From Vogesella sp. LIG4 (GTDB taxonomy: Bacteria > Pseudomonadota > Gammaproteobacteria > Burkholderiales > Chromobacteriaceae), in contig NZ_LT607802.1 of NCBI RefSeq assembly GCF_900090205.1, positions 1,249,215-1,313,214 on the forward strand: DNA of 64,000 nucleotides, in the 5' to 3' direction. The notes beneath the pieces were generated by a model. It saw nothing but the letters and a program-made list of their open reading frames with translations. It searched no databases and was not told the origin of the DNA. Shown here piece after piece: positions 605 to 62,245 of this stretch; within the stretch, counting starts at the first letter, position 1; the number at the start of each line of letters is the position of its first letter. The position numbers and the translations under genes were made by a program.

Positions 605-614
605 GTTGGCCGCA
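605..614 (+). repeat. GTTGGCCGCA motif copy, between the first gene and pilT
   Basis: This is the first of 48 exact copies of a 10-base motif found on either strand in this window; the extended form here is AAGGTTGGCCGCA (602-614). The first finding gives the full list and the interpretation as a possible uptake-type sequence. Other single copies in noncoding DNA start at 3016, 4492, 7343, 17200, 27623, 34901, 38332, 45783, 53728 and 62109. Confidence 0.85.
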
Positions 615-820
615 GCCGGCATAGCGGCAGACCAATGTTCTGCCCGGCGGGGTACGGCCGCCGGCCCAGGCAGGTGCTGGCGGCATGGAAGCCCCGCCAA
701 GCGCCGTGTATGATTTATCAAAACAACTGTTACAAGCCTGCCATTTAACGCATCACTACTGCGCGCCGGTTTTTTGTGGAGCAATGGCCTGGCGGCCATT
801 CCGGGCGAACGGGGAACTCA

Positions 821-1861
821 ATGGAAATTTCCGACCTGCTGTCCTTCACGGTCAAGAACAAGGCATCCGACCTGCATCTGTCCGCCGGTCTGCCGCCGCT
901 GATCCGCGTGCATGGCGACATCCGCCGCATCAACCTGCCGCCGATGGACCACCACGACGTGCACGACATGGTGTACGACATCATGAACGACTATCAGCGC
1001 AAGAACTTCGAGGACAGCTTCGAGTGCGACTTCTCGTTCGAGGTGCCCAACCTGGCACGCTTCCGGGTGAACACCTTCATGCAGAACCGCGGCATGGGCG
1101 CGGTGTTCCGCGTGATTCCGTCCAAGGTGCTGTCGCTGGAAGACCTGAACGCGCCGAAGATTTTCCGCGATATTTCCGAATACCCGCGCGGCATCGTGCT
1201 GGTGACCGGGCCGACCGGCTCCGGTAAATCCACCACCCTGGCGGCGATGGTCGATTACATCAACAGCAACTACTACGCGCACATTCTCACCGCGGAAGAC
1301 CCGATCGAATTCGTGCACGAGAGCAAGAAGTCGCTGATCAACCAGCGTGAACTGGGTACCCAGACCCGCAGCTTCGCCAATGCGCTGAAGAGCGCGCTGC
1401 GTGAAGACCCGGACGTGATCCTGGTGGGCGAGATGCGCGACCTGGAAACCATCCGCCTGGCGCTGACTGCGGCGGAAACCGGCCACCTGGTATTCGGTAC
1501 CCTGCATACCAGCAGCGCGGCCAAGACCATCGACCGTATCGTGGACGTGTTCCCGGCAGCGGAAAAGGACATGGTGCGCGCCATGCTGTCGGAAAGCCTG
1601 CGCGCGGTGATTTCGCAGGCACTGCTGAAGACCAAGGACGGCGCCGGCCGGGTGGCGGCGCACGAAATCATGATCGGCACCCCGGCGATTCGCAACCTGA
1701 TCCGTGAGAACAAGCTGGCGCAGATCAACTCGATGATCCAGACCGGCCAGCAATATGGCATGCAGACACTGGACCAGTGTCTGACCGACCTGGTGCGCCG
1801 CAATATCGTGTCCGACGAAGAAGCGCGCGGCAAGGCCACCAACAAGGACAACTTCCTGTAA
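821..1861 (+). CDS. pilT: Type IV pilus retraction ATPase PilT
   Basis: PilT is the hexameric cytoplasmic ATPase that depolymerises type IV pili. It powers twitching motility and pilus-mediated DNA import. The 346-residue product has the usual length. It carries an N-terminal PAS-like half (1-100), Walker A GPTGSGKST at about 130-138, the acidic Asp-box segment AEDPIEF and the VGEMRDLETI Walker B region. The ATG at 821 follows GGGGAAC and starts the typical MEISDLL sequence; an in-frame ATG at 776 would add 15 residues unlike the family. pilU follows after 12 bases, the standard pilT-pilU operon of beta- and gammaproteobacteria. Confidence 0.97.
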   Translation: MEISDLLSFTVKNKASDLHLSAGLPPLIRVHGDIRRINLPPMDHHDVHDMVYDIMNDYQRKNFEDSFECDFSFEVPNLARFRVNTFMQNRGMGAVFRVIPSKVLSLEDLNAPKIFRDISEYPRGIVLVTGPTGSGKSTTLAAMVDYINSNYYAHILTAEDPIEFVHESKKSLINQRELGTQTRSFANALKSALREDPDVILVGEMRDLETIRLALTAAETGHLVFGTLHTSSAAKTIDRIVDVFPAAEKDMVRAMLSESLRAVISQALLKTKDGAGRVAAHEIMIGTPAIRNLIRENKLAQINSMIQTGQQYGMQTLDQCLTDLVRRNIVSDEEARGKATNKDNFL

Positions 1862-1873
1862 GCGGAGCGGGTG

Positions 1874-3013
1874 ATGGAAAAGGAACAGGCATCAAAATTT
1901 ATCCATGATCTGCTGCGCCACGCGGTCAGCAAGAACGCGTCCGATATCTTCATTGCCGCGGAATTTCCGCCGGCGATGAAAATCGACGGCAAGATCACCC
2001 CGGTATCGCCGCAGCCGCTGTCCGGCCAGCACACCAAGGAACTGGTGCGCGCGGTGATGAACGACCGCCAGACCGAGGAATTCGAGGCCAACAAGGAAGC
2101 CAACTTCGCCATCAGCCCGCCGGGCATCGGCCGCTTCCGCGTCAGCGCCTATATCCAGCAGGGCAAGGCCGGCATGGTGCTGCGCAAGATCAACACCGAT
2201 ATCCCCACTTTCGAGCAGCTGCAGCTGCCGGAGGTGCTGAAGGACATCGCGATGATCAAGCGCGGGCTGGTGATCTTCGTCGGCGGCACCGGCTCGGGTA
2301 AATCCACCTCGCTGGCCGCCATGGTCGATTTCCGCAACAGCAACAGCGCCGACCACATCATCACCATCGAGGACCCGGTGGAGTATGTGCACCCGCACAA
2401 GAAGAGCATCATCACCCAGCGCGAAATCGGCGTGGATACCGACAGCTGGGAGATTGCACTGAAGAACACGCTGCGCCAGGCGCCGGACGTGATCCTGATG
2501 GGCGAGATCCGCGACCGCGAAACCATGATGTACGGCCTGCAGTTCGCCGAAACCGGCCACCTGTGCCTGGCCACGCTGCACGCCAACAACGCCAACCAGG
2601 CGCTGGACCGCATCCTGAACTTCTTCCCGGAAGAGCGGCACCAGCAGGTGCTGATGGACCTGTCGCTGAACATGAAGTCCATCATCTCGCAGCGCCTGGT
2701 GCCGCTGAAGGGTGGCAAGGGCCGTACCGCGGCGATCGAGATCCTGATCAACACCCCGCTGATCGCCGACCTGGTGTTCAAGGGCGAGGTGTCCAGCATC
2801 AAGGAGGTGATGAGCCGCTCGCGCGAATCCGGCATGCAGACTTTCGACCAGGCGCTGTTCGACCTGTTCGAAAGCGGCAAGATCAGTTACGAGGATGCGC
2901 TGCGCAATGCCGACTCGGTGAACGATCTGCGGCTGCAGATCAAGCTGCACAGCGAAACCGCCAAGCACCAGGGGCTGGAGCAGGGCGGCATCGACCACCT
3001 GGACATCGTCTAG
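1874..3013 (+). CDS. pilU: PilT-dependent retraction ATPase PilU
   Basis: This is a paralogue of PilT that cooperates with it in forceful pilus retraction. The 379-residue product has Walker A GGTGSGKS at about 137-144, ITIEDPVEYVH as the Asp box and MGEIRDRETM as the Walker B region. Its C-terminal extension, ending GIDHLDIV, is longer than in PilT, which distinguishes PilU. The ATG at 1874 is preferred over the overlapping GTG at 1871, because GGAGCGG lies just upstream of either. It is the second gene of the pilTU operon. A motif copy (3016-3025) begins 3 bases after the stop, followed by a very long bidirectional terminator. Confidence 0.96.
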   Translation: MEKEQASKFIHDLLRHAVSKNASDIFIAAEFPPAMKIDGKITPVSPQPLSGQHTKELVRAVMNDRQTEEFEANKEANFAISPPGIGRFRVSAYIQQGKAGMVLRKINTDIPTFEQLQLPEVLKDIAMIKRGLVIFVGGTGSGKSTSLAAMVDFRNSNSADHIITIEDPVEYVHPHKKSIITQREIGVDTDSWEIALKNTLRQAPDVILMGEIRDRETMMYGLQFAETGHLCLATLHANNANQALDRILNFFPEERHQQVLMDLSLNMKSIISQRLVPLKGGKGRTAAIEILINTPLIADLVFKGEVSSIKEVMSRSRESGMQTFDQALFDLFESGKISYEDALRNADSVNDLRLQIKLHSETAKHQGLEQGGIDHLDIV

Positions 3014-3030
3014 CCTGCGGCCAACCCTGG

Positions 3031-3086: not shown

Positions 3087-3100
3087 CGATTCCTGCCTGC

Positions 3101-4315: not shown

Positions 4316-4536
4316 GTTTTCGATTCCTGCCATGACTATTCGATAGTAGCCGAAAGCGCCGGCAGCGGGCAGCACCGGCGTTGCCGGCTGCTCGCCGCCA
4401 GGGGCGGGCGTGGGTGGCTTGCAACAAAACTGCAACTGGCTGCCCCGTGCCGCTGCTGTTTCATGTGAAACCTGCCCGGCAGCGCTGCGGTGTTGGCCGC
4501 ATACTGCAAACATGCCCCCGCAGCCAGGAGCCTGCC

Positions 4537-5080: not shown

Positions 5081-5110
5081 AGGGTTGGCCGCAAGCTTGC
5101 GGCCAACCTT
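5081..5110. repeat. Inverted pair of GTTGGCCGCA motifs forming a hairpin
   Basis: AGGGTTGGCCGCA (5081-5093), the spacer AGCT and TGCGGCCAACCTT (5098-5110) make a stem. Positions 5083-5108 form a perfect palindrome. It lies between the convergent thpR (+) and gltL (-) genes and probably serves both as terminator. This matches the way Neisseria and Haemophilus uptake sequences form inverted pairs at gene ends. Confidence 0.8.
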
Positions 5111-7307: not shown

Positions 7308-7385
7308 CGCAAGCGGGAGGGGCACGCCCCTGGCCCGGTTACGTTGGCCGCAAGCCGAACTCACCCGCTTGTATGACCACGCCGC

Positions 7386-10118: not shown

Positions 10119-10535
10119 TCAATGGCCATGCCCCAGCCACAGCATGCCGGCCACCAGCACCGCGTAGCGGGCGAACTTGCCCAGCGTGATCCAGCACACG
10201 CAGGCGGCCCACGGCAGGCGCAGCCAGCCGGCGGCCAGCGGCAGCGCATCGCCCAGCACCGGCAGCCAGCTCAGCAGCAGCGCTGCCGGGCCGAAGCGGG
10301 CGAACCACGCCGCCGCGCGCGGCGGCAGCGGCTTGGGCGGTACACGGCGCCCCAGCCATACGCTGGTCAGGCTGCCGACACTGTTGGCCGCAGTGGCCAC
10401 CAGCAAGGCCGGCAGCCACAGCCGCGGCGCCGCCAGCAGCACGCCGCCCAGCGCCAGCTCGGAATTACCCGGCAGCACCGTGGCGGACAGGAAGGCCGAT
10501 GCCGCCAGCCCTGCCAGCAGCAGTACGCTGTCCAT
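10119..10535 (-). CDS. YqaA-like DedA/VTT-family membrane protein
   Basis: This 138-residue inner-membrane protein has three or four hydrophobic segments and the family signature around GNSELALGGVLLAAP and FARFGPAALLLSWLPVLGDALPLAAGWLRLP. The family (SNARE-associated/VTT, YqaA branch) is linked to membrane homeostasis; the substrate of this branch is not established. The ATG at 10535 begins MDSVLLL, two bases after the cyaY stop on the same strand, so the two genes are probably co-transcribed. A motif copy at 10383-10392 lies inside the gene. Confidence 0.85.
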   Translation of the reverse strand: MDSVLLLAGLAASAFLSATVLPGNSELALGGVLLAAPRLWLPALLVATAANSVGSLTSVWLGRRVPPKPLPPRAAAWFARFGPAALLLSWLPVLGDALPLAAGWLRLPWAACVCWITLGKFARYAVLVAGMLWLGHGH

Positions 10536-11071: not shown

Positions 11072-11547
11072 GTGTCCTGCAGGTTCGTGCGGCCAACCTT
11101 GCCGACCGCGCCGACCGCGCGCTGCTGGTGCGGCTGACCGACGGCTATGCCAGCGACCCGATGGGCGGCGGCGCCGGCCTGTCCAGCCATGCCCGGCTGC
11201 ATCTGGCCGATGCGCTGGGCCGCCACCCCGGCCTGTTCGCGGTGATCGCGGAGCTGGATGGCGAGCCGGTGGGCCATGCGCTGTGCGTGCTGGGCTTTTC
11301 CAGCTTCTACGCCGCGCCGGTGTGCAATCTGCATGATCTGTCGGTGCTGGCAGCCGGCCGCGGCAAGGGGCTGGGCCGCTTGCTGATGCAGGCGGTGGAA
11401 GACGGCGCCCGTAGCCGTGGCTGTGCCAAGGTGACGCTGGAAGTGCGCGAGGACAACCACATCGGCCTTGGCCTGTACCACAGTGAAGGGTTTGCCCATT
11501 CCGGGCTGGGCGACGCCCGCTACCTGATGATGGAAAAGAAACTCTAA
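11068..11547 (+). CDS. GNAT-family N-acetyltransferase
   Basis: This 159-residue acetyltransferase is translationally coupled to lptM by an ATGA overlap. The GNAT core is visible: LHDLSVLAAGRGKGLGRLLMQAVEDGARSRG contains the acetyl-CoA pyrophosphate loop (R/Q-x-x-G-x-G/A), followed by KVTLEVREDN and GLYHSEGFAHSG. The acceptor substrate cannot be told. It occupies the place where lysA usually stands in the cyaY-lptM-lysA arrangement. A motif copy (11088-11097) lies at codons 7-10. Confidence 0.88.
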   Translation: MSVLQVRAANLADRADRALLVRLTDGYASDPMGGGAGLSSHARLHLADALGRHPGLFAVIAELDGEPVGHALCVLGFSSFYAAPVCNLHDLSVLAAGRGKGLGRLLMQAVEDGARSRGCAKVTLEVREDNHIGLGLYHSEGFAHSGLGDARYLMMEKKL

Positions 11548-14461: not shown

Positions 14462-15175
14462 ATGCGCCGAGCCGACCGCCTGCTGCAGATCCTGCTGCTG
14501 ATGCGTGGGCGCCGCCGAACCACTGCCGCACAGTTGGCCGCATGGCTGGAGGTATCGCCGCGCACCGTGTACCGCGACATGGCCGCACTGCTGGCCAGCG
14601 GCGCACCGCTGAACGGCGAGGCCGGCGAAGGCTACTGGCTGGAGGCGGGCTTCACCCCGCCGCCGATCAGCTTCGACACGGCGGAACTGGCGGCGCTGGA
14701 AGCTGGTGCGCGCATGCTGGCCGGCTGCGCCGACAGCGACACCGCCGCAGCCGCCGCCAGCGCGCTGCAGAAGATCCACGCCGTGCTGGGCAGCGGCGGG
14801 CTCACGCCCTCGCCGCTGTTCGTGCCGCCGCTGCGCTCCCCGGCGCCGGCGGTGCTGACCGAACTGCGCCAGGCCTGCGAGCAGCAGCGCTGCCTGCAGC
14901 TGCACTACCGCGACGAAGGCGGCCGCAGCAGCGAGCGGGAAGTGGCGCCGCTGGGGCTATTCTTCTGGGGGGAGCACTGGACATTGGCTGCCTGGTGCCG
15001 GCTGCGCCAGGCTTACCGCCACTTCCGCACCGACCGCATCCAGGCGGTGCATGCGGCCAACCTTGCCTGGCCGGACGATATTTCGCTGGATGGCTTTCTG
15101 CAGCAGGCCGGTGCCGGCACGGATGTCCGCCAGCGCCTGCAGCAGCAGACCAGCCAGCCCTGGCACCGGCGCTGA
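14462..15175 (+). CDS. YafY-type HTH/WYL transcriptional regulator
   Basis: The 237-residue product has an N-terminal HTH_11 winged helix (RADRLLQILLLMRGRRRTTAAQLAAWLEVSPRTVYRD) and a C-terminal WYL-type ligand-sensing domain (about 135-215, with LQLHYRDEGG and GEHWTLAAWCRLRQAYRHFR). Such regulators usually control the adjacent VOC and hydrolase genes and may sense nucleic-acid ligands. It lies between the EVE and second VOC genes in one transcription unit. Two motif copies (14533, 15052) are inside the gene. Confidence 0.9.
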   Translation: MRRADRLLQILLLMRGRRRTTAAQLAAWLEVSPRTVYRDMAALLASGAPLNGEAGEGYWLEAGFTPPPISFDTAELAALEAGARMLAGCADSDTAAAAASALQKIHAVLGSGGLTPSPLFVPPLRSPAPAVLTELRQACEQQRCLQLHYRDEGGRSSEREVAPLGLFFWGEHWTLAAWCRLRQAYRHFRTDRIQAVHAANLAWPDDISLDGFLQQAGAGTDVRQRLQQQTSQPWHRR

Positions 15176-17199: not shown

Positions 17200-17215
17200 G
17201 TTGGCCGCAAGGGTG

Positions 17216-27616: not shown

Positions 27617-27635
27617 ATCAGGGTTGGCCGCAGGC

Positions 27636-41205: not shown

Positions 41206-41814
41206 TCAGCGCGCGGCTACCGCCAGCATGCGTGCGGCCAACTGTTGCTGCTGCGGGCTGCCGGCCTGCAGCGCCTCTACCGCGCCGGCCACGTCCTGCG
41301 GTGTGCGGTTCTGGCTGAGCTTTTCCTTCACTTCCCAGCGTGCCACCCGCAGGCGGAAACCGACGATGGCGCGCTGCATGGCAGTCAGCGCCTTTTCCGG
41401 CACCGCGTCCATGCTCCAGCCATCCGCACCTTCGAAGCGCGCGGCCAGCAGCTGCAGCAGGACAGACAGCCCGGCACCGTCCACCACGCTGGCCTGGCCG
41501 TGGGCATGGGCGACGCGGTAGTTCCAGGTGGGCACCATATTGGGGCTGCTGTACCAGCGCGGCGAGATGTAGTCGTGCTCGCCGTGGAAGATAGCCACGC
41601 TGGGCGCCTGCAGCACGGCCTGGCTGTGGCCGTTGGCGGCGGCCAGGTGGCCCAGCAGGCAGTCCGGGTCGGCAGGGTCCGGCAGTAGCACCAGGTGGCT
41701 GATCCACGGCGTGCCCTCGTGCTGGGTGATCAGGGTGGCGAACGGAAACTCGCTGGCAAGTGTGCGGCCAACGTTGGCCGCAGCGACGAAAGACGGGGGC
41801 TGGTAGAAGGGCAT
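41206..41814 (-). CDS. FMN-binding PaiB-type regulator
   Basis: This 202-residue flavin-binding split-barrel protein of the PaiB family begins MPFYQPPSFVAA and shows ATLITQHEGTPWISHLVLL, YISPRWYSSPNMVPTWNYRVAHAHG and WSMDAVPEKALTAMQRAIVGFRLRV. PaiB of Bacillus negatively affects sporulation and protease genes; in proteobacteria its role is unknown. The ATG at 41814 follows GGAG. Codons 12-17 carry a 20-bp palindrome made of two abutting motif copies. A third copy is at 41233-41242. Confidence 0.9.
   Translation of the reverse strand: MPFYQPPSFVAAANVGRTLASEFPFATLITQHEGTPWISHLVLLPDPADPDCLLGHLAAANGHSQAVLQAPSVAIFHGEHDYISPRWYSSPNMVPTWNYRVAHAHGQASVVDGAGLSVLLQLLAARFEGADGWSMDAVPEKALTAMQRAIVGFRLRVARWEVKEKLSQNRTPQDVAGAVEALQAGSPQQQQLAARMLAVAAR
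41763..41782. repeat. 20-bp palindrome of two abutting motifs
   Basis: TGCGGCCAACGTTGGCCGCA is a perfect palindrome made by joining TGCGGCCAAC and GTTGGCCGCA head to head, inside the paiB-like gene. Confidence 0.9.
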
Positions 41815-44326: not shown

Positions 44327-45685
44327 TTACGGCATCAGCAGCCGCGCTTCCTCGCTAACCCGTTGCTGCGGGTTGGCCGCATCCTGCAGGGTGAATGTCA
44401 CCGCATGGCTGCCGCGCGCCAGCTGGTTCGGGTCGGCGGCCACGGTAACGATAAAGCTGCGGTCGCCATCGGCCGGCACCAGCAGCGGTTCCGCCGGCTG
44501 CGCCGCCACCACGCCTTCGCCATTCACCGCCAGCCGGTACTGCCGCGCTTGCGGCAGGGTGTTGAAGATGCGCACGGTATAGGCGTTCTCAATATTGCCG
44601 TCCGGCGTTTCGCGCGCCATCACCGCGCGGTCGCGCAGGATATCGACACGGAACGGCTGGCGCAGCGCCAGGCTGGCCAGCATGGCCACGGTGACCGTGG
44701 CGATCAGCCCGCCGTAGACCAGTGCGCGCGGGCGTTGCCACAGCCGCGGCGGCTTGCCGCTGGCCAGCGCATGCTGGGTGGTGAAGCGGATCAGCCCGCG
44801 CGGCGCGGCCAGCTTGTCCATTACCGTGTCGCAGGCGTCGGCGCACAGGCCACAGCCGATGCACTCGTATTGCAGCCCGGCGCGGATGTCGATGCCGGTG
44901 GGACACACTTGCACGCACAGGCCGCAGTCCACGCAGTCGCCTTGCGCTGCGGCGGTGGCGGCTTCCTTGCGCCGGGCGCCGCGCGGCTCGCCGCGGGCCT
45001 GGTCATAGGCCACCAGCAAGGTGTGGTCGTCGAACATGGCGCCCTGGAAGCGGGCGTACGGGCACATGTGCTTGCAGACCTGCTCGCGCAGGTGGCCGGC
45101 CAGCAGCCAGGTAAAGGCGGCATAGCCCAGCGCGAACATGGCTTCCCATGGGCCGATATGGCCGGCGCCAAGGTTGGCCGCAAGCTCGCGCATCGGGGTG
45201 AAATAGCCCACCAGGGTCAGGCCGGTCCACAGCGAGAACAGCAGCAGCAGTGTTTGCGTGCTGCCCTTCTTCAGCAGTTTCTCCGCGCCCCACGGTGCGG
45301 CATCAAGCCGGCGGCGGGCATTGGGCGGGCCTTCCACCCAGCGCTCCAGCCACAGCATGATCTGGCTGTACACCGTTTGCGGGCAGGAAAAGCCGCACCA
45401 CAGCCGCCCGGCCAGCATGGTCCACAGGAACAGCCCCAGCGCGGCAATGATCAGGCTGCCGGCCAGGTAGATCAGGTCCTGCGGCAGCAGCGTCAGGCCG
45501 AACAGGTAGCCGCGCATGCTGGCGAAGTCGTAGCGCACCGCCTGGCGGCCGCCCCACTGCAGCCACGGCAGGCCGAAGTAGATCAGCTGGGTAATCAGCA
45601 CGAAGGCGATGCGCCAGTTGTTGAAACGCCCGCCGGTAAGCCGCGGGTAGACCTTGCTGGAAACGAAATGGATGGGAATGGCCAT
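44327..45685 (-). CDS. ccoG: Cytochrome c oxidase accessory protein CcoG (RdxA/FixG)
   Basis: This membrane-bound iron-sulfur protein of 452 residues has several hydrophobic helices in the first half. It has two 4Fe-4S ferredoxin motifs (CVDCGLCVQVCPTGIDI and CIGCGLCADACDTVMDK), a CGFSCPQTVYSQ motif and a C-terminal Ig-like domain. CcoG reduces copper during assembly of cbb3-type oxidase. The ATG at 45685 begins MAIPIHF. No ccoNOPQ genes are in the window, so it is separated from the oxidase operon or the operon lies outside. Motif copies occur at 44372 and 45173. Confidence 0.95.
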   Translation of the reverse strand: MAIPIHFVSSKVYPRLTGGRFNNWRIAFVLITQLIYFGLPWLQWGGRQAVRYDFASMRGYLFGLTLLPQDLIYLAGSLIIAALGLFLWTMLAGRLWCGFSCPQTVYSQIMLWLERWVEGPPNARRRLDAAPWGAEKLLKKGSTQTLLLLFSLWTGLTLVGYFTPMRELAANLGAGHIGPWEAMFALGYAAFTWLLAGHLREQVCKHMCPYARFQGAMFDDHTLLVAYDQARGEPRGARRKEAATAAAQGDCVDCGLCVQVCPTGIDIRAGLQYECIGCGLCADACDTVMDKLAAPRGLIRFTTQHALASGKPPRLWQRPRALVYGGLIATVTVAMLASLALRQPFRVDILRDRAVMARETPDGNIENAYTVRIFNTLPQARQYRLAVNGEGVVAAQPAEPLLVPADGDRSFIVTVAADPNQLARGSHAVTFTLQDAANPQQRVSEEARLLMP

Positions 45686-45812
45686 GATCTGCGCCCGATG
45701 AGTTGTACGCGCCGAGCTTAGGCAGCGTCCAGGGGGGCAGACAGGCACAGATGGCGGCTATCGGGCGGACACAGCGCCGGCTTGCGGCCAACGTTTGCGC
45801 CAGCGCAAACGG

Positions 45813-48702: not shown

Positions 48703-48738
48703 TGCGGCTAACGTTGCGGCCAACGTTGCGGCCAACGT
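48703..48738 (+). repeat. Tandem array of three 12-base motif units
   Basis: TGCGGCTAACGT followed by two exact TGCGGCCAACGT units make a head-to-tail array. A partial TGCGACTG continues it at 48739. The second and third units each contain an exact copy of the motif complement TGCGGCCAAC. Confidence 0.85.
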
Positions 48739-49409: not shown

Positions 49410-50543
49410 TCAGGCGTCGCACCAGATCAGCTGGTTGCGCCCCGCACGTTTGGCCCGCAGCAGGCGCCGGTCGGCCTGCTCGAACAGTTGCGGCCAACCA
49501 TGCGGCCCGCAGTCCGGCACGCTGGAGATGCCGATGCTGGCTGTCAGCCGGCTGCACTCGCTGCCGGCGCCTACCTCCACTTCACGAATGCAGGCCGACA
49601 GCTTGGCGGCTACCTCGCAGGCCCCCGGCATGTCGGTATGCGGCAGCAGCAGGCAGAACTCCTCGCCGCCGATGCGGCCGAACAGGTCGCCGCGGCGGAT
49701 GTTGCCGCTGATCACGGCGGCCAGCCGGCGCAGTGCACTATCACCCGCGCTGTGGCCGAAGCGATCGTTGATGCGCTTGAAGTAATCCAGATCGATGACC
49801 AGCAAGGCCAGTGGCTGCTGCAGGCGCGCGTGCAGTGCGCACAGGCGTGCGGCCTGCTCCTCGAAGCCACGCCGGTTGAGAATGCCGGTCAGCGGGTCGA
49901 GGTGGGCCAGCTGCTGTAGCGCCGCCAGCTCCTGCTCACGGCCCAGATGGATGAAGCACAGCGGCAGGATGGCGGCATTGGCCAGCAAGGGCAGCAGCAA
50001 CAGCGGCGACATGGCCGGGTGCTCCACCGGCTGTGGCATGGCCTGGGCAAGCAGCAGCTGGTAGCCGCACCAGGCGGCCAGGTAGCCGGCCAGCACGCGT
50101 GTCGCACGCTGCTGGTTATGGCCGTGTTGCCACAGCAGCCAGGCCAGCTGGCTGCCGCAGGCCAGCGACAACAGCAGCGGGCAGACCGTGGCCAGCAGCG
50201 GGCCGGCGGGCAGCAGCAGCGTTGCCGCCACGGTAATGGCGCACAGTGGCAGCAGATGCTGGCGTTGCAGCAGGGCCGGCCGTGGCAGGGCCAGCAACTG
50301 CTGGAAGGCGCCCAGCAGCAGCAGGCCCTTGAGCAGGGTAAGCAGGGGAATCAGCAAGGCCGGCGGATAGGCCGGCATGGGCAGCAACGGCAGGGTATTG
50401 CTGGCTTGCAAGGCGGAGGCAAGGCTGAAGCCCAGCCAGTAATATCGGGCGCTCTGGCGTTGCAGCAGCCAGACCATCGCGCCGCACAGCAGGTGCAGCA
50501 GGGCCAGGCAGAGCAACAGCGTGCCGGAATCCAGGTAAATCAT
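49410..50543 (-). CDS. Membrane diguanylate cyclase
   Basis: This 377-residue protein has an N-terminal region with six or seven hydrophobic helices (about 5-200; a 7TM-type sensor), a short linker and a GGDEF domain (about 215-370) with GGEEF at about 290. The inhibitory RxxD site (RRGD) is five residues upstream. It is the fourth GGDEF gene of the window with the same active-site and inhibitory pattern. An A/T-rich promoter region lies just upstream (about 50545-50620). A motif copy is at 49489-49498. Confidence 0.9.
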   Translation of the reverse strand: MIYLDSGTLLLCLALLHLLCGAMVWLLQRQSARYYWLGFSLASALQASNTLPLLPMPAYPPALLIPLLTLLKGLLLLGAFQQLLALPRPALLQRQHLLPLCAITVAATLLLPAGPLLATVCPLLLSLACGSQLAWLLWQHGHNQQRATRVLAGYLAAWCGYQLLLAQAMPQPVEHPAMSPLLLLPLLANAAILPLCFIHLGREQELAALQQLAHLDPLTGILNRRGFEEQAARLCALHARLQQPLALLVIDLDYFKRINDRFGHSAGDSALRRLAAVISGNIRRGDLFGRIGGEEFCLLLPHTDMPGACEVAAKLSACIREVEVGAGSECSRLTASIGISSVPDCGPHGWPQLFEQADRRLLRAKRAGRNQLIWCDA

Positions 50544-50688: not shown

Positions 50689-51402
50689 ATGGAACTGTAC
50701 CGTTTATTGCAACAACAGGGCTTTGGCAGCCGCAAGGAATGCCGGCAGCTGATCGACTACGGCCTGGTGGCCGTGGATGGCGAAACCATCGACGACTGGC
50801 GCGCGCCGGTGGAGCCGGCGGCCATCCGCCAGCTGACGGTGGATGGTGAGGACTGGCCGCTGCTGACGTTGCCGCTGTACCTGCTGCTGCACAAGCCGGC
50901 CAACTTCGAAACCTCGCACAAGCCCATCCATCACCCCAGCGTGTACCGGCTGCTGCCGCCGCAGCTGAACAACCTCGGCATCAGCGCGGTGGGGCGGCTG
51001 GACGTGGATACCACCGGCCTGCTGCTGTTCAGCAGCGATGGCCAGTTTGTGCACGCGCTGACCTCGCCGAAGAAACAGGTGCCCAAGCTGTACCGCGTCA
51101 CCACCAAGCACCCGGTGAGCGCCGAACTGCTGCAGCGGCTGCGCGACGGCGTGCTGCTGCACGACGAGAACGAAACCCTTGCTGCGGACAGTGCCGAACA
51201 GGTGGCTGACTGCGTACTGGACATGGCCATTACCCAGGGCAAGTACCACCAGGTGAAGCGCATGGTGGCGGCCGCGGGCAACCGCGTGGAGCAGCTGCAC
51301 CGGCTGGCGCTGGGCGCGGTGACGCTGGGCGAGCTGCCGCCGGGGCAGTGGCGCCATCTGACGGCGGCAGAGTTGGCCGCATTGGGTTTCGGGCCGGCCT
51401 GA
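50689..51402 (+). CDS. rsuA: 16S rRNA pseudouridine synthase RsuA
   Basis: This enzyme makes pseudouridine at position 516 of 16S rRNA in E. coli. The 237-residue protein begins with an S4-like domain (MELYRLLQQQGFGSRKECRQLID) and has the catalytic motif AVGRLDVDTTGLLLFS (catalytic Asp) and PKLYRVTTKHPV. KYHQVKRMVAAAGNRVEQLHRLALG is the conserved C-terminal motif. It is convergent with hemY and shares its terminator. A motif copy is at 51372-51381. Confidence 0.95.
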   Translation: MELYRLLQQQGFGSRKECRQLIDYGLVAVDGETIDDWRAPVEPAAIRQLTVDGEDWPLLTLPLYLLLHKPANFETSHKPIHHPSVYRLLPPQLNNLGISAVGRLDVDTTGLLLFSSDGQFVHALTSPKKQVPKLYRVTTKHPVSAELLQRLRDGVLLHDENETLAADSAEQVADCVLDMAITQGKYHQVKRMVAAAGNRVEQLHRLALGAVTLGELPPGQWRHLTAAELAALGFGPA

Positions 51403-51470: not shown

Positions 51471-52679
51471 TCAGCAGCCCTGCTGCAGCGCGATTTCCAG
51501 CGCCAGCGCCTGGTGCTGCGCGGCCTTGTCTTCCTTGCCGATGGTGGCAAACAGCTGGTGCAGCTCGGCATGGGCGCACAGTGTCGGCTGCACCGACAGG
51601 CTGGCTTCCAGGTAGCTCTGCGCCTTGCCCCATAGCTGCTCGGCCCGTGCCAGGCGGCCCAGCGCCAGCAGCAGCATGTGGTCGTGCGGGCGCGATTTCA
51701 GCCAGTTCTCGGCGTCGCGCATCAGCGTCAGGCGGCGCTGGCTGTCGATATGCTCGGCCAGCATGCCCAGTTCGCGTGCCAGCTCCGGTGTGGCCTGCTC
51801 GTCATTGGACAGCGCGCCGGCAATCACCTCGGCGGCGGCGCCGTAGGCCTGCAGGGCGATCAGCTGCTTGGCGCAGTCGGACACCAGGTCCGGGTTCTGC
51901 CGTTCCACTTCCGGGATGCGCTTGAGCCAGTCGCGCACTTCGCGCTCGCTGGCGAAGCCGGCCAGCTGCTGGCGGTAGGCGGCCAGGCGGTAGCGGCGTG
52001 CGCGTTCGGCGTCCAGCGCGTCGGCCTTCAGCAGTTTTTCGGTGAGCTGCAGTACCTGTTCCGGCTGTTTCAGCATCAGGCGGATCTTCAGCTCCAGCCG
52101 CAGCGCGGAAGTGAGGTTGCTGCTGATGGCGCGGGCGCGTTCCACCGCGGCCAGTGCTTCCAGCGGCTGTTTGGCATCCATGCGGATCTGCGCTTCCACC
52201 ATGTGGCGCGCCAGCTGGCTGCGCTCCGGCATGCCTTCCAGCCGCGACAGGTAGCCATCGCGCTTGGCGTTGTCGCCCACGCTGGCGGCGGAGCGGGCGG
52301 CGATCAGCAGCGCCAGCGCCTGGTTGTCGCTGGAGTACTCGTCGTCGATCGACTTGATCGCTTCACGTTCGGCGCGCTGGTAGCGGCCCTCGAACATGGC
52401 CAGTGCCGCTTCGCGCAGTGCATGGCGCGAGGCTTTCAGCCGCTTCTGGCGCTGGAAGGCACGCACCTCGGTCGGCAGGTTGGCCGCAAGGCTGATCAGG
52501 CGCAGCACGCCGTAGGCCAGCAGGATCAGCACCACGATGGCGACGATCAGCAGGTTGAACGACACCTCCATGCGGTACGGCGGCACGAACAGGATGGCGT
52601 ATCCGGTGTTGACGGTAGAGGCCAGCCCGATCAGCACCGCCAGGGCAAACAGCCCGACAATCCACAGTACGAATCTCAC
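51471..52679 (-). CDS. hemY: HemY, heme-biosynthesis-associated TPR membrane protein
   Basis: This 402-residue inner-membrane protein has two N-terminal hydrophobic helices (about 4-22 and 38-60; FALAVLIGLASTVNTGYAILFVPPYRMEVSFNLL) and a TPR-like periplasmic or cytoplasmic tail. HemY is encoded at the end of the hemCDXY cluster in beta- and gammaproteobacteria; its precise role in tetrapyrrole synthesis is not settled. The ATG at 52679 lies three bases after the hemX stop, so the two are coupled. A motif copy is at 52489-52498, and hemY is the last gene before the terminator. Confidence 0.94.
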   Translation of the reverse strand: MRFVLWIVGLFALAVLIGLASTVNTGYAILFVPPYRMEVSFNLLIVAIVVLILLAYGVLRLISLAANLPTEVRAFQRQKRLKASRHALREAALAMFEGRYQRAEREAIKSIDDEYSSDNQALALLIAARSAASVGDNAKRDGYLSRLEGMPERSQLARHMVEAQIRMDAKQPLEALAAVERARAISSNLTSALRLELKIRLMLKQPEQVLQLTEKLLKADALDAERARRYRLAAYRQQLAGFASEREVRDWLKRIPEVERQNPDLVSDCAKQLIALQAYGAAAEVIAGALSNDEQATPELARELGMLAEHIDSQRRLTLMRDAENWLKSRPHDHMLLLALGRLARAEQLWGKAQSYLEASLSVQPTLCAHAELHQLFATIGKEDKAAQHQALALEIALQQGC

Positions 52680-53708: not shown

Positions 53709-53866
53709 GGGGTACAGGTAACCGCAAGTTGGCCGCAAGGCGCGGCTGGGTTAGCAGAGGGGCGTATCTACGCCGGGTAATGCAGGGCATTGTAACGCCC
53801 AAGTACATGGGCTGCCAGAAATGTGCGCCTGCCGCTGCGGCCGGCTGCGGTGCTGTGCCGGCGGTT

Positions 53867-54607
53867 TCAGCCGTGCAGCATGGCCGCCAGTGCGGCGCTG
53901 CCCCCATCGCACAGGCGGATATCGCGGGCGCCCAGCTGGCGCAGCCGCTCGGCAATGCGCGGGTGCAGGGTAAAGAAAACCTGTGCGGCCAACGCTGGCT
54001 GCCGCGTGGCGCCGGCGGCGGCAAACAGCGCGCTGGCGGCCTCGCTGGAGGCGACCAGCAGGCCGGCAAGCGCGCCGTGTTGCCGCAATTGTTCGAACAG
54101 CGCCCAGTCCAGCGGCTGCGGCTCGCGGCGGTAGATGTCGGCGTAGGCGACGGCAGCGCCGCGCGCGGCAAGGGTCGCCCCCAGTTGCGCGCGACCATCG
54201 GCTCCGCGCACGATCAGCCAGCGCTGGCCGGCCAGTTGCTGCAGCGCCGGCTGGGCCAGCAGCGCGTCACTGTCGTTGCCGTCGTCCGGCGCGATGACCG
54301 TGCGGCCGCTGGCGGCGGCCAGCTTGCCGGCGCTGCCGGCACCGACACAGGCCAGCAGCGTGTGCGGCGGCAGGCTGGCGGCGATGGCCGGCCAGCCGAT
54401 GTCGATGGCGGAAGGGCTGACGAAGATCACGCCGTCGCTGCCGGCGGCCTGGCGCGGCAGTGCAGCCAGCGCCGCGGCATCCGCCACGGTGTCCAGCGCG
54501 CAGAACGGCAGGCTGCTGATGCCCAGTGCCGCCAGCTCGGCCTGCTGGCGCAGCGCCTGGGCCTGCGGCCGGACCAGTAGCAGTGTGGGCGGCAGCGTGC
54601 CGGGCAT
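53867..54607 (-). CDS. hemD: Uroporphyrinogen-III synthase
   Basis: This 246-residue enzyme closes hydroxymethylbilane to uroporphyrinogen III. Sequence identity in this family is low. Gene position directly after hemC (one base after its stop), the length and features such as FVSPSAIDI, VGAGSAGKLA and LLVASSEAASALFAAAG support it. The start overlaps the region just after the hemC stop. A motif copy is at 53984-53993. A 158-base gap before hemX contains no obvious gene, only another motif copy (53728-53737). Confidence 0.93.
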   Translation of the reverse strand: MPGTLPPTLLLVRPQAQALRQQAELAALGISSLPFCALDTVADAAALAALPRQAAGSDGVIFVSPSAIDIGWPAIAASLPPHTLLACVGAGSAGKLAAASGRTVIAPDDGNDSDALLAQPALQQLAGQRWLIVRGADGRAQLGATLAARGAAVAYADIYRREPQPLDWALFEQLRQHGALAGLLVASSEAASALFAAAGATRQPALAAQVFFTLHPRIAERLRQLGARDIRLCDGGSAALAAMLHG

Positions 54608-54608
54608 C

Positions 54609-56102: not shown

Positions 56103-58811
56103 ATGACTGATCTGGACAAGGACCTGCCCCTGCGCGAAGACCTCGCGCGGCTCAACCGCCTGCTGGAAGCGCTGCTGCGCGAACAGGCCGGCGACGAAGT
56201 AGTGGATGAAATCCGCGCCATTCCCGCTGGCGCGCTGCAGCACGACAAGCGCGCCGACGAACTGGTGCAGCGGCTCACCCCGGCCGCCACCACCGCGCTG
56301 GTGCGTGCCTGCGGCCTGTATTCGCAGCTGTTCAATATTGCCGAAGACCTGCACCACGCCCGCCGCCGCCGTGCGCACCAGCGTGCCGGCAGCGCGCCGC
56401 AGCGCGGCAGCCTGTCGCGGGCGCTGTCCACCATTCACGAGGCTGGCGTGCCGTTTGCACAGCTGAACGCCGCGCTGCAGGAGGCCAGCGTCAGCGCCGT
56501 GCTCACCGCGCACCCCACCGAGGTGCAGCGCCAGAGCGTGCTGGATGGCCACCGGGCAGTGCGCAAGTTCCTGCAGCAGCTGTCTTCCGTGGAGATCACT
56601 CCGGAAGAAGAGCAGGAAGTGGAGGCCAAGCTCACCCGCGTGATCCACGCGCTGTGGCAGACCACCGAGATCCGCCCGTTCAAGATGACGGTAGCCGACG
56701 AGATCGAAAACGGCGTCGCCTACCACCCGCTGTCCTTCTTCCAGTCCATCCCGGCGCTGTACGACCGCCTGGGCAAGCAGATTCGCGAACTGTGGGGCGA
56801 GCGCGCCGACATCCCGTCCTTCCTGCGCGTGGGCAGCTGGATCGGTGGCGACCGAGACGGCAACCCCAATGTCGACGCCGGCGTGCTGCGCCACGCGGTG
56901 AAGCGTCAGGCTGAAGTGGCGTTCAAGCATTACTTCTACGAACTGGCCGGCCTGTACCGTGAATTGTCGCTGTCGCAGCGCCACGTGCAGGTATCCGCCG
57001 GGGTGCAGCGCCTGGCCACCGCTTCGCCGGATACCGCCATCAGCCGCAAGGAAGAACCCTACCGCCTGGCGCTGGCCAGCATCGAAGGCCGCCTGTCCGC
57101 CACCGCGGCCGGCCTGGGCCTGCCGCTGCGTGGCCGCTGGAGCGCCGGCGAGCCCTACGCTTCCGCCTCCGAGTTGCAGGCCGAGCTGCAGACGCTGGCC
57201 GATTCGCTGACCGAGCACGGCAGCGCCCTGCTGATCGACGGCCGTCTGGGCAAACTGCTGCGCGCGGTGGACGTGTTCGGCTTCTACCTGATGCCGCTGG
57301 ACCTGCGCCAGCACGCCGAAAAACATGCCGGCGTGGTCAGCGAACTGTTCGCCCACGCCAACCTGGAGCAATACGACGCGCTGGACGAACCGGCGCGCGT
57401 GCGCGTGCTGCTGCGCGAACTGGCCACGCCGCGCCTGCTGTACTCGCCCTACCTCAGCTACAGCGCCGACAGCGAAAAAGAGCTGGGCATCTTCCGCGAA
57501 GCGGCGCTGGTGCAGCGCCAGTTCGGCGACGGCGCCATCGCGCAGTGCATCATCTCCAACTGCGCCAGCGTGTCCGACATCCTGGCGCTGGCACTGCTGT
57601 GCAAGGAGTGCGGCCTGCTGCGCCTGGATGGCGGCGTGCCGGCCATCAGCCTGAACCTGGTGCCGCTGTTCGAAACCATTGCCGACCTCGACGCCTCCGC
57701 CAGCATCATGCAGCAGCTGTTTGCCCTGCCGTGGTACCAGCAGCTGCTGAAGAGCCGTGGCGAGGTGCAGGAAGTGATGCTGGGCTACTCCGACAGCAAC
57801 AAGGACGGCGGCTATGTCACCAGCCAGTGGCAGCTGTACCAGGCCGAGCAGCGCCTGGTGCGCGTGTTCGACAAGGCCGGCATCCGGATGCGCCTGTTCC
57901 ACGGCCGCGGCGGCTCGGTGGGCCGCGGCGGCGGCCCGTCCTACGAGGCCATCATGGCGCAGCCGGCAGGCACCGTGGTTGGCCGCATCCGCATCACCGA
58001 GCAGGGCGAGGTGATCACCGCCAAGTTCGCCGACCCGGACAACGCCACCCGCAACCTGGAAGCGCTGGTGGCCGCCACGCTGGAATCCACCCTGGCGCAC
58101 GGCGACAGCCGCATCACCGACGAAAGCGCGGTGGCCGAGCTGTCCGACAGCGCCTTCCGCGCCTACCGCGCGCTGGTGGAATCGGACGGCTTCATGCAGT
58201 ACTTCATGGAGGCCACCCCGATCGGCGCCATCGCCAAGCTCAACATCGGCAGCCGCCCGGCCTCGCGCAAGACGCTGGCCAGCATCAAGGACCTGCGCGC
58301 CATTCCGTGGGTGTTCTCCTGGTCGCAGTCGCGGGTGATGCTGCCGGGCTGGTACGGCTTTGGCAGCGCGGTGCGCGCCTTCCTCGATGCCCACGGCGAA
58401 GCGGTCGGCCTGGCACGGCTGCAGGCGCTGTACAGCGGCTCGCCCTTCCTGCAGGTGATGCTGTCCAATATGGAACAGGTACTGGCCAAGGCCGATCTGC
58501 AGATTACGCGCCGCTACGCCGCGCTGGTGGGCGATGCCGCGCTGGCCGACCGCCTGTTCGGCCGCCTGCAGGCCGAGTTCGATGCAACGTTGGCCGCATT
58601 CTTCTCCATCACCGGCCAGGAAAAGCTGCTGCAGGGCAACCCGACGCTGGCGCGCTCGCTGGATACCCGCCTGCCCTACCTGGATGCACTCAACCTGCTG
58701 CAGGTGGAGCTGCTCAAGCGCCTGCGCGACCAGCCGGACGACGAAGAGGCGCTGTACGCCATCCACCTCACCATCAACGGCATCTCCGCCGGCCTGCGCA
58801 ACAGCGGCTGA
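56103..58811 (+). CDS. ppc: Phosphoenolpyruvate carboxylase
   Basis: This anaplerotic enzyme of 902 residues makes oxaloacetate from phosphoenolpyruvate and bicarbonate. It shows the catalytic histidine motif TAHPTEVQR at about 135-143, GGDRDGNPNV at about 249, DSNKDGGYVTS at about 562 and the glycine loop FHGRGGSVGRGGG at about 598. It ends LRNSG rather than the commoner MRNTG. The ATG at 56103 is chosen because GGAAGAAG lies directly upstream; the frame is open from 56010. Motif copies at 57978 and 58589. It stands alone, transcribed away from hemC. Confidence 0.97.
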   Translation: MTDLDKDLPLREDLARLNRLLEALLREQAGDEVVDEIRAIPAGALQHDKRADELVQRLTPAATTALVRACGLYSQLFNIAEDLHHARRRRAHQRAGSAPQRGSLSRALSTIHEAGVPFAQLNAALQEASVSAVLTAHPTEVQRQSVLDGHRAVRKFLQQLSSVEITPEEEQEVEAKLTRVIHALWQTTEIRPFKMTVADEIENGVAYHPLSFFQSIPALYDRLGKQIRELWGERADIPSFLRVGSWIGGDRDGNPNVDAGVLRHAVKRQAEVAFKHYFYELAGLYRELSLSQRHVQVSAGVQRLATASPDTAISRKEEPYRLALASIEGRLSATAAGLGLPLRGRWSAGEPYASASELQAELQTLADSLTEHGSALLIDGRLGKLLRAVDVFGFYLMPLDLRQHAEKHAGVVSELFAHANLEQYDALDEPARVRVLLRELATPRLLYSPYLSYSADSEKELGIFREAALVQRQFGDGAIAQCIISNCASVSDILALALLCKECGLLRLDGGVPAISLNLVPLFETIADLDASASIMQQLFALPWYQQLLKSRGEVQEVMLGYSDSNKDGGYVTSQWQLYQAEQRLVRVFDKAGIRMRLFHGRGGSVGRGGGPSYEAIMAQPAGTVVGRIRITEQGEVITAKFADPDNATRNLEALVAATLESTLAHGDSRITDESAVAELSDSAFRAYRALVESDGFMQYFMEATPIGAIAKLNIGSRPASRKTLASIKDLRAIPWVFSWSQSRVMLPGWYGFGSAVRAFLDAHGEAVGLARLQALYSGSPFLQVMLSNMEQVLAKADLQITRRYAALVGDAALADRLFGRLQAEFDATLAAFFSITGQEKLLQGNPTLARSLDTRLPYLDALNLLQVELLKRLRDQPDDEEALYAIHLTINGISAGLRNSG

Positions 58812-60191: not shown

Positions 60192-61115
60192 ATGAAAACA
60201 ATGCCATCGCCAGACGAAGTGCTGGCATTCGAAGCGCTGGCTCGCTGCGGCAGTTTCACCGCCGCCGCAGAGGCGCTGGGCTGTACCAAGAGCATGGTCA
60301 GCCTGCGGCTGAAGGCGCTGGAGAAGCAGCTGGGGGCGGTGCTGGTGTTGCGCACCACCCGCCGGCTGGCACTCACCGAGGCCGGGCAGCGGCTGCTGCC
60401 GCATGCCGAGGCGCTGCGCCAGAGCCTGCTGCAGATGCAGCCGGCGGTGGACAGCGCGCAGTGCGCGGTGGAAGGCCCGCTGGTGGTGAGCACCTATGTG
60501 TCGGTATCGCAGTTGCTGGCGCCTATCCTGGCCGAGCTGGCCCGCGAACAGCCCGGCCTGCAGCTGCGGCTGGAGGTGAACAACCGCGTGCAGGACCCGA
60601 TTGCCGACGTGCTGGACTTCTGCGTGCGCTCGCGCAAGGTGCACGACGACTCGCTGGTGGCGCGGCCGCTGGGCTGGGTGGAAGAAGCGCTGTATGCCGC
60701 GCCGGGCTACCTGGCGGCACAAGGTTGGCCGCAGACGCCGGAGGAGCTGGCCGCACACCGGCTGATCATGGACGGTAGCTGCCTGACGCTGTGCCGCGGC
60801 GAGGAACTGCGCTCGCTGACGCAGCCTGCGCCGCTGCTGGATTGCAATCTGTACCAGAACAACCTGACGCTTACCCTGCTGGGGCACGGCATCGGTGCGC
60901 TGCCGGACTTCCTGGCGGCGCCGGCGCTGGCGAGCGGGCAGTTGCAGCGGGTGCTGCCGGGCTGGCACAGCGACCGCTGGCCGGTGTTCCTGGTGCACCC
61001 CTACCGCTTGCCGCTGCCGCGCAAGTACCAGGTGTTTCTCGATTTCGTGCTGCCGCGGCTGCGCGCCGTGCTGCAGGCGGCCGATAGCGGCGCATTACCG
61101 TCGCCAATGCACTAA
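60192..61115 (+). CDS. LysR-family transcriptional regulator
   Basis: This 307-residue regulator has a winged helix (DEVLAFEALARCGSFTAAAEALGCTKSMVSLRLKALEKQLG) and an effector domain resembling the GcvA/DsdC branch, including LVVSTYVSVSQLLAPILAEL. It lies between a small gene (divergent) and an EamA gene (same strand, 79 bases downstream), which may be its targets. The ATG at 60192 has a weak ribosome site; an ATG at 60201 is an alternative. A motif copy is at 60724-60733. Confidence 0.9.
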   Translation: MKTMPSPDEVLAFEALARCGSFTAAAEALGCTKSMVSLRLKALEKQLGAVLVLRTTRRLALTEAGQRLLPHAEALRQSLLQMQPAVDSAQCAVEGPLVVSTYVSVSQLLAPILAELAREQPGLQLRLEVNNRVQDPIADVLDFCVRSRKVHDDSLVARPLGWVEEALYAAPGYLAAQGWPQTPEELAAHRLIMDGSCLTLCRGEELRSLTQPAPLLDCNLYQNNLTLTLLGHGIGALPDFLAAPALASGQLQRVLPGWHSDRWPVFLVHPYRLPLPRKYQVFLDFVLPRLRAVLQAADSGALPSPMH

Positions 61116-61194
61116 AACAGGGCGCGTGCGGCTTGCTGCTGCGACGCAGCACAGGCAGGATAGGGCCTCCCCCCATCTATCGAACGGTTTTGTC

Positions 61195-62097
61195 ATGTCT
61201 CACCCCACCGCCCCGTCGCCGCGCGGCATTGCGCTGTCGCTGCTGGCGTCATCGCTGTTTGCCATGCTGCCGGGCTACGTCACCCTGCTGGCACCGCTGG
61301 ACAGCGTGGCCATTTTTGCCTGGCGTATTGTCTGCACCCTGCCCGGCGTGCTGCTGATCCTGCAATTGTCCGGCAAGCGCCAGGCCTTCATCGATACCTG
61401 CCGGCGGCTGCGCGAACCGAAGCTGATGCTGCTGGTGCCGCTGATGACGGCGATGATGGGGGTGCAGCTGTGGCTGTTCCTGTGGGCGCCGTTCCACGGC
61501 CAGGTGGTGGCGGTGTCGCTGGGTTACTTCCTGGCGCCGCTGGTGATGGTGCTGGTAGGCCGTCTGCTGTACGGCGAAAAACTGTACCGGCTGCAGGCGC
61601 TGGCGGTGGCACTGGCGCTGCTGGGTGTGGCGCACGAGATCTGGCTCACCCGCGGCCTCGCCTGGCCGACGCTGCTGGTGGTGCTGGGCTACCCGCCCTA
61701 CTTCGTGCTGCGCCGCATGACCGGGCTGGACGCGGTGTGCGGCTTCGCGCTGGAAATGGCGCTGATGCTGCCGTTGGCGATCGTGCTGCTGCTGTGGCAG
61801 GACCCGTCCGGCTGGGTGGTGCTGCGCGAGTTCAAATACTGGCTGCTGCTGCCGGGGCTGGGGCTGGTGAGTTCGGTGGCGCTGCTGTGCAATATCGCCG
61901 CCAGCCACCTGCTGCCCATGGGGCTGTGGGGTCTGCTGGGCTACGTGGAGCCGGCGCTGCTGTTCGTGCTGGCCATTACCGTGCTGCGCGAGCCGGTGAC
62001 CGCCGGCACGCTGTTCACCTACGGCCCGATCTGGGGCGCCATCATCCTCACCGGCATTCACACCCTGCGTCAGCAGCGCCGCCTGCAGCTGGCCTGA
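61195..62097 (+). CDS. EamA/RarD-type transporter
   Basis: This 300-residue inner-membrane protein has ten helices. The RarD-like features are GIALSLLASSLFAMLPGYVTLLAPLDSVAIFAWRI and SLGYFLAPLVMVLVGRLLYGEKL. RarD exporters are of the EamA/DMT family; substrates are mostly unknown. The ATG at 61195 is the first good start. A motif copy lies after the stop (62109-62118). Confidence 0.9.
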   Translation: MSHPTAPSPRGIALSLLASSLFAMLPGYVTLLAPLDSVAIFAWRIVCTLPGVLLILQLSGKRQAFIDTCRRLREPKLMLLVPLMTAMMGVQLWLFLWAPFHGQVVAVSLGYFLAPLVMVLVGRLLYGEKLYRLQALAVALALLGVAHEIWLTRGLAWPTLLVVLGYPPYFVLRRMTGLDAVCGFALEMALMLPLAIVLLLWQDPSGWVVLREFKYWLLLPGLGLVSSVALLCNIAASHLLPMGLWGLLGYVEPALLFVLAITVLREPVTAGTLFTYGPIWGAIILTGIHTLRQQRRLQLA

Positions 62098-62245
62098 GCC
62101 GACAAGGGGTTGGCCGCAGGGCCGGCTGCTGCCGGCAGTGTGCTATATGGTAATTGTCTGAAATGGCGCAACGGCGCGGGACAGCGGGATTCTATATGCC
62201 AGAATTCCGACTCCCTGAACAATCTCTTGAGTGGAGGGCTTCACC

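Follow-up and report, generated by a model that had tools for sequence, protein, structure and literature searches.

An abundant ten-letter word of Vogesella as a putative DNA uptake sequence with a candidate ComP receptor

The chromosome of Vogesella sp. LIG4 (one contig, 4,147,242 bp) carries 2,895 copies of the ten-letter word GTTGGCCGCA, 1458 in the forward and 1437 in the reverse orientation, compared with 4 + 4 copies of the word read backwards. We studied the word in a 64-kb window of this chromosome (1249215-1313214; positions below are those of the window unless called chromosomal), counting exact matches on both strands. The initial annotation of the window had proposed an uptake-type sequence. 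This interpretation is supported at the sequence level, at which none of the refuting outcomes named with it occurred, and is strengthened by related words in sister genera and by a gene of the ComP clade located outside the window. It is very probable that Vogesella possesses a DNA uptake sequence (DUS) system working like that of Neisseriaceae.

We propose that GTTGGCCGCA, with a looser CA(A/G)G on its 5′ side, serves the genus Vogesella as its DNA uptake sequence. A type IV pilus containing the minor pilin ComP would bind free DNA bearing the word, PilT-type retraction would draw the tagged DNA through the outer membrane, and ComEC would pass one strand inward for recombination. The copies would be spread and kept by transformation, because tagged DNA would be taken up more often. 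We infer that Vogesella ComP reads GTTGGCCGCA and that the word raises uptake.

The window contains 48 exact copies, 29 in plus and 19 in minus orientation, at a density of 0.75 per kb. Shuffled windows hold 0.57 copies on average and four at most. The initial annotation located 47 of the 48 copies correctly; the one that it placed at 52489 starts at 52479. A G directly precedes the word in 27 of the 48 copies, extending it to GGTTGGCCGCA in more than half of them, as had been noticed. In a 464-kb sample of the genome (11% of the total), GTTGGCCGCA is the most over-represented 10-mer, with 341 copies found and 15.6 expected. The logo of 340 sites has a weak CA(A/G)G extension on the 5′ side (C 53% at -3, A 59% at -2, A 57% or G 25% at -1, G 51% at 0). 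On the other side, weak A/T, G, and C occupy +11 to +13, with a flat profile further out. Among the 30 single-letter variants, G at +10 is the sole and modest standout (28 found, 17 expected).

The copies are unevenly distributed between genes and the gaps separating them. Genes were called by a simple codon-based caller without curation (378 genes covering 86% of the bases of the 464-kb sample). Called genes enclose 224 of the 341 copies at 0.56 per kb, and the remaining 117 lie outside at 1.74 per kb, which is about three times denser. The density is 2.68 per kb in convergent gaps, 1.81 in codirectional gaps, and 0.69 in divergent gaps. Neighboring copies at most 60 bp apart are oppositely oriented in 37 cases and similarly oriented in one. 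By these rough gene calls, GTTGGCCGCA displays the intergenic excess and the inverted pairs near gene ends that are a trait of neisserial-type DUS. In the window, 20 of the 48 copies are outside called genes and three more (41233, 41763, and 41773) are within a doubtful call overlapping tRNA-Ala, so that the earlier figure of about 21 noncoding copies was fair. The features of the window are listed below; every motif copy is an exact match.

605..614, plus: motif copy outside called genes
3016..3025, minus: motif copy, intergenic, 3′ of pilU-type gene
4492..4501, plus: motif copy within called gene
5084..5093, plus: motif copy outside called genes, left arm of inverted pair with 4-bp loop
5098..5107, minus: motif copy, right arm of 5084 pair
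7343..7352, plus: motif copy outside called genes
10383..10392, plus: motif copy outside called genes
11088..11097, minus: motif copy within called gene
14533..14542, plus: motif copy within called gene
15052..15061, minus: motif copy within called gene
17200..17209, plus: motif copy outside called genes
17714..17723, minus: motif copy within called gene
18704..18713, minus: motif copy within called gene
21580..21589, plus: motif copy outside called genes, left arm of inverted pair with 41-bp gap
21631..21640, minus: motif copy, right arm of 21580 pair
22246..22255, minus: motif copy within called chemoreceptor gene
24660..24669, plus: motif copy within called gene
25284..25293, plus: motif copy within called gene
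25822..25831, plus: motif copy within called gene
27623..27632, plus: motif copy outside called genes
29071..29080, plus: motif copy outside called genes, left arm of inverted pair with 3-bp loop
29084..29093, minus: motif copy, right arm of 29071 pair
29403..29412, plus: motif copy outside called genes, left arm of inverted pair with 19-bp gap
29432..29441, minus: motif copy, right arm of 29403 pair
31553..31562, plus: motif copy within called gene
31850..31859, minus: motif copy within called gene
33949..33958, plus: motif copy within called gene
34901..34910, plus: motif copy directly 3′ of gene end
38332..38341, minus: motif copy outside called genes
38544..38553, plus: motif copy within called gene
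40474..40483, plus: motif copy within called gene
41233..41242, minus: motif copy within doubtful gene call overlapping tRNA-Ala
41763..41772, minus: motif copy in doubtful gene call, half of abutting inverted pair 3′ of tRNA-Ala (41601-41683)
41773..41782, plus: motif copy, other half of 41763 pair
44372..44381, plus: motif copy within called gene
45173..45182, plus: motif copy within called gene
45783..45792, minus: motif copy outside called genes
48715..48724, minus: motif copy in 12-bp tandem repeat
48727..48736, minus: motif copy in the tandem repeat shared with 48715
49489..49498, minus: motif copy within called gene
51372..51381, plus: motif copy within called gene
52479..52488, plus: motif copy within called gene
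53728..53737, plus: motif copy at called-gene edge
53984..53993, minus: motif copy within called gene
57978..57987, plus: motif copy within phosphoenolpyruvate (PEP) carboxylase gene
58589..58598, plus: motif copy within PEP carboxylase gene
60724..60733, plus: motif copy within called gene
62109..62118, plus: motif copy outside called genes
776..1861, plus: PilT/PilU-family type IV pilus ATPase, the first, PilT-like by order (TIGR01420 511.5 bits, cut-off 319.1)
1871..3013, plus: PilT/PilU-family type IV pilus ATPase, the second, PilU-like by order (TIGR01420 457 bits, cut-off 319.1)

The word is a property of the genus. Vogesella belongs to Chromobacteriaceae, Neisseriales, in the NCBI taxonomy, and our family set comprised 61 genomes of the window's family in ten genera (g1 is Vogesella, g3 Chromobacterium). 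The GCA word GTTGGCCGCA has 1,871-2,895 copies in all 13 genomes of the Vogesella genus and 8-58 in the other 48. In a draw of 399 genomes from the order, six of the Vogesella genus reach at least 1,871 copies, and none of the other 393 exceeds 52.

Sister words were sought in 80-kb samples of one genome per other genus (two for g8). The top 10-mer is GTTGGCCGAG, the GAG dialect, in g5, the genus holding Crenobacter luteus (G035), and GTTGGCCGAA, the GAA dialect, in g6, g7, g9 and, more weakly, g10; both words likewise mostly have AG directly 5′. Genome-wide, GTTGGCCGAA has 183-2,168 copies in eight family genomes (G010 1368, G036 579, G037 2168, G038 1245, G045 1851, G046 1104, G048 893, and the 84% complete G047 183) and 8-78 in the other 53. 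GTTGGCCGAG reaches 1,940 and 1,590 copies in the two genomes of g5; G036 has 165, and the remaining 58 genomes have 13-92. Some dialect thus occurs in 23 of the 61 genomes, and none of the three words in 38. The GCA, GAG, and GAA dialects sort by genus, another trait of neisserial-type DUS, here read from genus assignments and the ComP tree. Genus g6 includes Crenobacter oryzisoli (G036) and Neisseriaceae bacterium JH1-16 (G037). Crenobacter is placed in Neisseriaceae at NCBI, and G035-G037 sit in the window's family in the genome set used here. The pooled pattern GTTGGCCGMR has 2,164-2,920 copies in nine Vogesella-like genomes, 160-220 in four Chromobacterium genomes (controls 57-109), 150 in Crenobacter intestini, and 164 in Crenobacter caeni; the low counts in the last two mean that such a word is not carried by every species named Crenobacter.

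Across the order, GTTGGCCGAA is high only in the window's family (G010 and G038 in the draw), and does not exceed 47 copies in 11 genomes of family f44. By sequence, f44 is taken as Neisseriaceae, because GGCCGTCTGAA was the commonest form among the matches listed, from two f44 genomes. The neisserial DUS pattern, a positive control, has 542-5,270 copies in ten of these 11 genomes (reversed controls 6-99), eight in the eleventh, and 10-27 in five genomes of family f41. In the 80-kb samples of G002, G022, G032, G039, and G042, in which a rare word could escape, no word similar to the three was found; the nearest candidate is CTGGCCGA in G042 (48 found, 18 expected). A second word besides the GAA word, GCTTAAGCA with the palindromic GCTTAAGC, is over-represented in the samples of G045 (32 found, 0.5 expected). 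Within g2, G010 has its 1,368 GAA copies next to 11-36 in nine congeners, which keep the ComP-group protein. It is possible that the tag was lost within one genus, or that the species is misplaced.

The PEP carboxylase protein of the window matches 25 loci of named genomes, of which that of Vogesella oryzae is the best (94% identity). Six more Vogesella, Beta proteobacterium L13, and a metagenome-assembled genome (MAG) follow with 85-87% identity; one further MAG locus, which is partial, has 88%. The ten Vogesella-like loci contain 11-20 copies of the GCA word each, and six Chromobacterium loci (one of 5.6 kb) contain 0-2 copies of each of the three words. When the window was aligned with nine Vogesella-like loci around the PEP carboxylase gene, 28 of 53 aligned sites preserved the word, compared with 9,245 of 36,000 (26%) for control 10-mers. 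As the nine comparisons share history, this is only suggestive of the word being kept above background in Vogesella. None of four aligned sites is intact in the JH1-16 locus, and none of seven in that of Chromobacterium haemolyticum.

ComP is the known receptor of DUS in the sister family Neisseriaceae (PMC12061091). The Pfam family ComP_DUS (PF16732), paralogues included, matches proteins in 61 of 61 family genomes and in none of 14 controls. For one group among them, the best matches in the PDB are the three solved structures of ComP, 2nba, 2m3k, and 5hz7. A profile of 14 proteins including those of Vogesella matches the structures over the soluble domain with E-values of 1.9e-18, 2.3e-17, and 1.4e-16, whereas the other 22 pilins listed are matched mainly in the N-terminal helix, PilV (5v0m) excepted. 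A search with the ComP-group alignment gave matches of at least 86 bits in 57 of the 61 genomes; the four g4 genomes reach 61 bits only. A few second copies in g2 and g9 score 105-126 bits, above the Vogesella proteins (87-110), and therefore bits alone do not settle orthology. A ComP-clade protein is encoded in all 23 dialect carriers, and the four g4 genomes without a clear one have none of the three tags.

A pilin tree of 79 rows was calculated with the ComP proteins thinned to 30 of 49, one duplicate Neisseria row left out, and three Neisseria stretches that gave no protein (L202-L204) omitted. Eight rows were labelled Neisseriaceae ComP by a profile score of at least 99 bits. A branch with support 96/94 divides the tree. 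On one side are the complete set of 30 ComP-group proteins from the family, these eight Neisseriaceae ComP, four second copies of g2, and seven other Neisseriaceae pilins; on the opposite side are 30 other pilins of the family. Vogesella ComP lies on the ComP side in a clade of its own (100/99). In the pilin tree with paralogues, ComP did not form its own clade; constraining it to do so costs 22 log units and is not rejected (p-AU 0.063). Since the seven additional pilins of Neisseriaceae branch next to Neisseriaceae ComP (97/82), the relationship is one-to-many, and orthologue or co-orthologue of ComP is the most fitting term for the gene of the family. This second group of Neisseriaceae minor pilins (L200-L215, f44) branches as if it and ComP had come from one gene, single in Chromobacteriaceae. 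In the ComP tree, the GCA carriers form one clade (100/100) and the GAA carriers do not.

The soluble part of ComP contains two or three cysteines. Net charge was considered as a mark of tag use and discarded, since it does not separate carriers from non-carriers. ComP-clade proteins were found in Chromobacterium phragmitis, C. vaccinii, C. sphagni, C. paludis, and C. alticapitis, species other than C. violaceum, in which BLAST had detected no ComP according to Frye et al. (PMC3630211). The f41 genomes G221, G254, and G421 encode several ComP-like pilins close together and lack the GAA word; G221 and G254 are without the neisserial DUS as well.

The comP gene of LIG4 is at chromosomal positions 1559002-1559421, and its ATG overlaps the stop codon of a GspH-like minor pilin gene (PF12019). 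In ten of ten loci from eight genera, comP is preceded by a similar GspH-like gene in the same orientation (blastp; Pfam was checked in three), which adjoins comP in the two Vogesella loci and lies 1.8 to 6.4 kb upstream in the others. As for the remaining machinery, the PilT and PilU assigned earlier to the window correspond to two PilT/PilU-family ATPases, both above the NCBIfam cut-off. ComEC (PF03772) is encoded in 59 of the 61 family genomes including LIG4, and was not found in two drafts of the Vogesella genus (G058 and G059). It also occurs in 10 of 14 control genomes and is therefore no mark of DUS.

Pasteurellaceae and Neisseriaceae are the main families in which abundant sequences for the uptake of self-DNA are known (PMC7811141). 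The words described here resemble DUS in being 10-12-mers in thousands of copies on both strands, with inverted pairs, an intergenic excess, dialects by genus, an encoded ComP-clade protein, and mostly AG before the ten letters, but they occur in the sister family Chromobacteriaceae. The eight neisserial dialects described share a CTG core (+6 to +8) and an A at +10 (PMC3630211), all of seven possible new Neisseriaceae dialects have CTG (PMC11316581), and N. meningitidis and N. subflava lose transformation upon any single change within CTG (PMC12061091). The Vogesella and sister words have CCG, not CTG, at these positions; the +10 base is A in the GCA and GAA words and G in the GAG dialect. 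Judged by its letters, the GTTGGCCGCA system is not a Neisseriaceae dialect in the published sense, because the CTG core fails.

The initial annotation went too far in stating that the word shares no clear core with known uptake sequences. The GAA form AGGTTGGCCGAA agrees with the two neisserial dialects AG-simDUS and AG-mucDUS at 9 of 12 positions, a match equalled by 1.0-1.3% of shuffles with free offset and strand and by 0.34% in register. The Vogesella form AGGTTGGCCGCA agrees with neisserial DUS at 8 of 12 (8.9% of shuffles as good, 1.7% in register). Reversed, the Vogesella word agrees at 9 of 12 with the extended uptake signal sequence (USS) of Haemophilus (0.5% of shuffles as good), and TGCGGCCAAC agrees with its TGCGGTCAAT at 8 of 10 (PMC12616744). 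The USS of Pasteurellaceae has the same genomic style (PMC12616744), but Pasteurellaceae are Gammaproteobacteria, the reversed Vogesella word is followed by a weak C(C/T)TG and no A/T-rich arm in the logo, and the resemblance is weaker for the sister dialects. Of the three words, only GCA has the USS core GCGG on its reverse strand; GAA and GAG have CGG. Letters alone do not decide descent, because the GAA form matches DUS and the reversed GCA word matches the Haemophilus USS; the receptor does point to the DUS kind. In one of two Vogesella genomes, the GspH-like neighbor of comP has a weak match, in its N-terminal part, to NCBIfam NF007800, which we take to be the PpdA family. The predicted USS receptor is a different pilin, ComN/PpdA (PMC12616744).

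It is also conceivable, although unlikely, that another pilin, such as the GspH-like one overlapping comP, reads the word, and that the system arose independently of neisserial DUS. Several observations besides the CCG core weigh in this direction and against a DUS-type system: a GspH-like gene directly precedes comP in two Vogesella genomes, the reversed word fits the Haemophilus USS better than the Vogesella form fits DUS, 34 genomes keep a ComP-clade protein without any of the three tags, and the ComP clade also holds the second Neisseriaceae pilin group. However, ComP is the established receptor in the sister family, and its clade is represented in every carrier and lacks a clear member only in genomes without tags. 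The GspH-like protein has no convincing sequence match in the PDB, so that nothing ties it to DNA here.

A structural or regulatory role, mainly in transcription terminators, would agree with the 37 inverted pairs and the top density in convergent gaps. It is very unlikely, as the pairs hold at most 74 of the 341 copies, about two thirds of the copies lie inside called genes, and terminators would not be expected to differ between genera in their last two letters. Still less credible is a chromosome-maintenance motif (Chi, KOPS, or matS) or a nucleoid-protein site. Such motifs may be short, over-represented, genome-wide words, but the copies have no replication-strand bias (178 to 163, with the leading strand defined by GC skew), are densest outside genes and in inverted pairs, and are missing at this abundance from the 48 other family genomes. 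Least probable of all are a dispersed mobile repeat, of the repetitive extragenic palindrome or miniature inverted-repeat transposable element type, which high copy number would suit, and a codon-usage effect: conservation around the word reaches only about four bases in front and one to three behind, 20 sampled 20-kb stretches hold an even 9-19 copies (mean 14.65, variance 8.87), not confined to mobile elements, and 30 synonymous-codon shuffles give 7.3 copies on average and 12 at most, compared with 226 in called genes. The shuffles, strand balance, even spread, and layout together make codon usage, Chi-like polar sites, mobile repeats, and terminators alone insufficient.

Some peculiarities of the sample stand apart. 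A 12-bp tandem repeat at 48700-48740 is built of AACGTTGGCCGC units, two with motif copies and a third with one change; its copies at 48715 and 48727 are the sole same-orientation close pair of the 464-kb sample. A stretch of low G+C content (0.492; chromosomal 1700001-1720000) has an ordinary count of 13 in 20 kb. Two other words are over-represented, CAGCCACAG (49 found, 12.4 expected) and AGGCGCTG (254 found, 138.5 expected).

The origin of DUS was dated after the split from C. violaceum, and five genomes of Laribacter, Lutiella, Pseudogulbenkiania, and Chromobacterium were reported to have no obvious DUS (PMC3630211). Returning to a system of the DUS kind, we speculate that the pairing of DUS and ComP is older than Neisseriaceae. 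The common ancestor of Neisseriaceae and Chromobacteriaceae would have had the system, with a GAA-ending word of the AGGTTGGCCGAA/AGGCTGCCTGAA kind, the last letters of which changed in Vogesella and in the genus of Crenobacter luteus, Chromobacterium and others would have lost the tag, and the "essential" CTG core would be the Neisseriaceae form only. The chances of this early origin appear evenly balanced. It is weakened by the moderate match of the GAA form to neisserial DUS and by the match of the Vogesella word to a USS as well, and the one-to-many orthology of ComP lowered our confidence from slightly better than even.

Searches of the open-licence literature, with subscription journals and most preprints outside their reach, found nothing on Vogesella and a DNA uptake sequence, and no DNA-uptake paper by title was among the matches listed for the three words. 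The earlier description of the motif as undescribed holds within that literature, and we make no wider claim. Vogesella is largely environmental and would be an environmental model. The three new words belong to a family in which DUS was reported missing (PMC3630211). Together with tag-less relatives that keep the ComP-clade gene, they would provide a natural series for the joint change of receptor and tag, for the loss of the tag, and for the role of bases beyond CTG.

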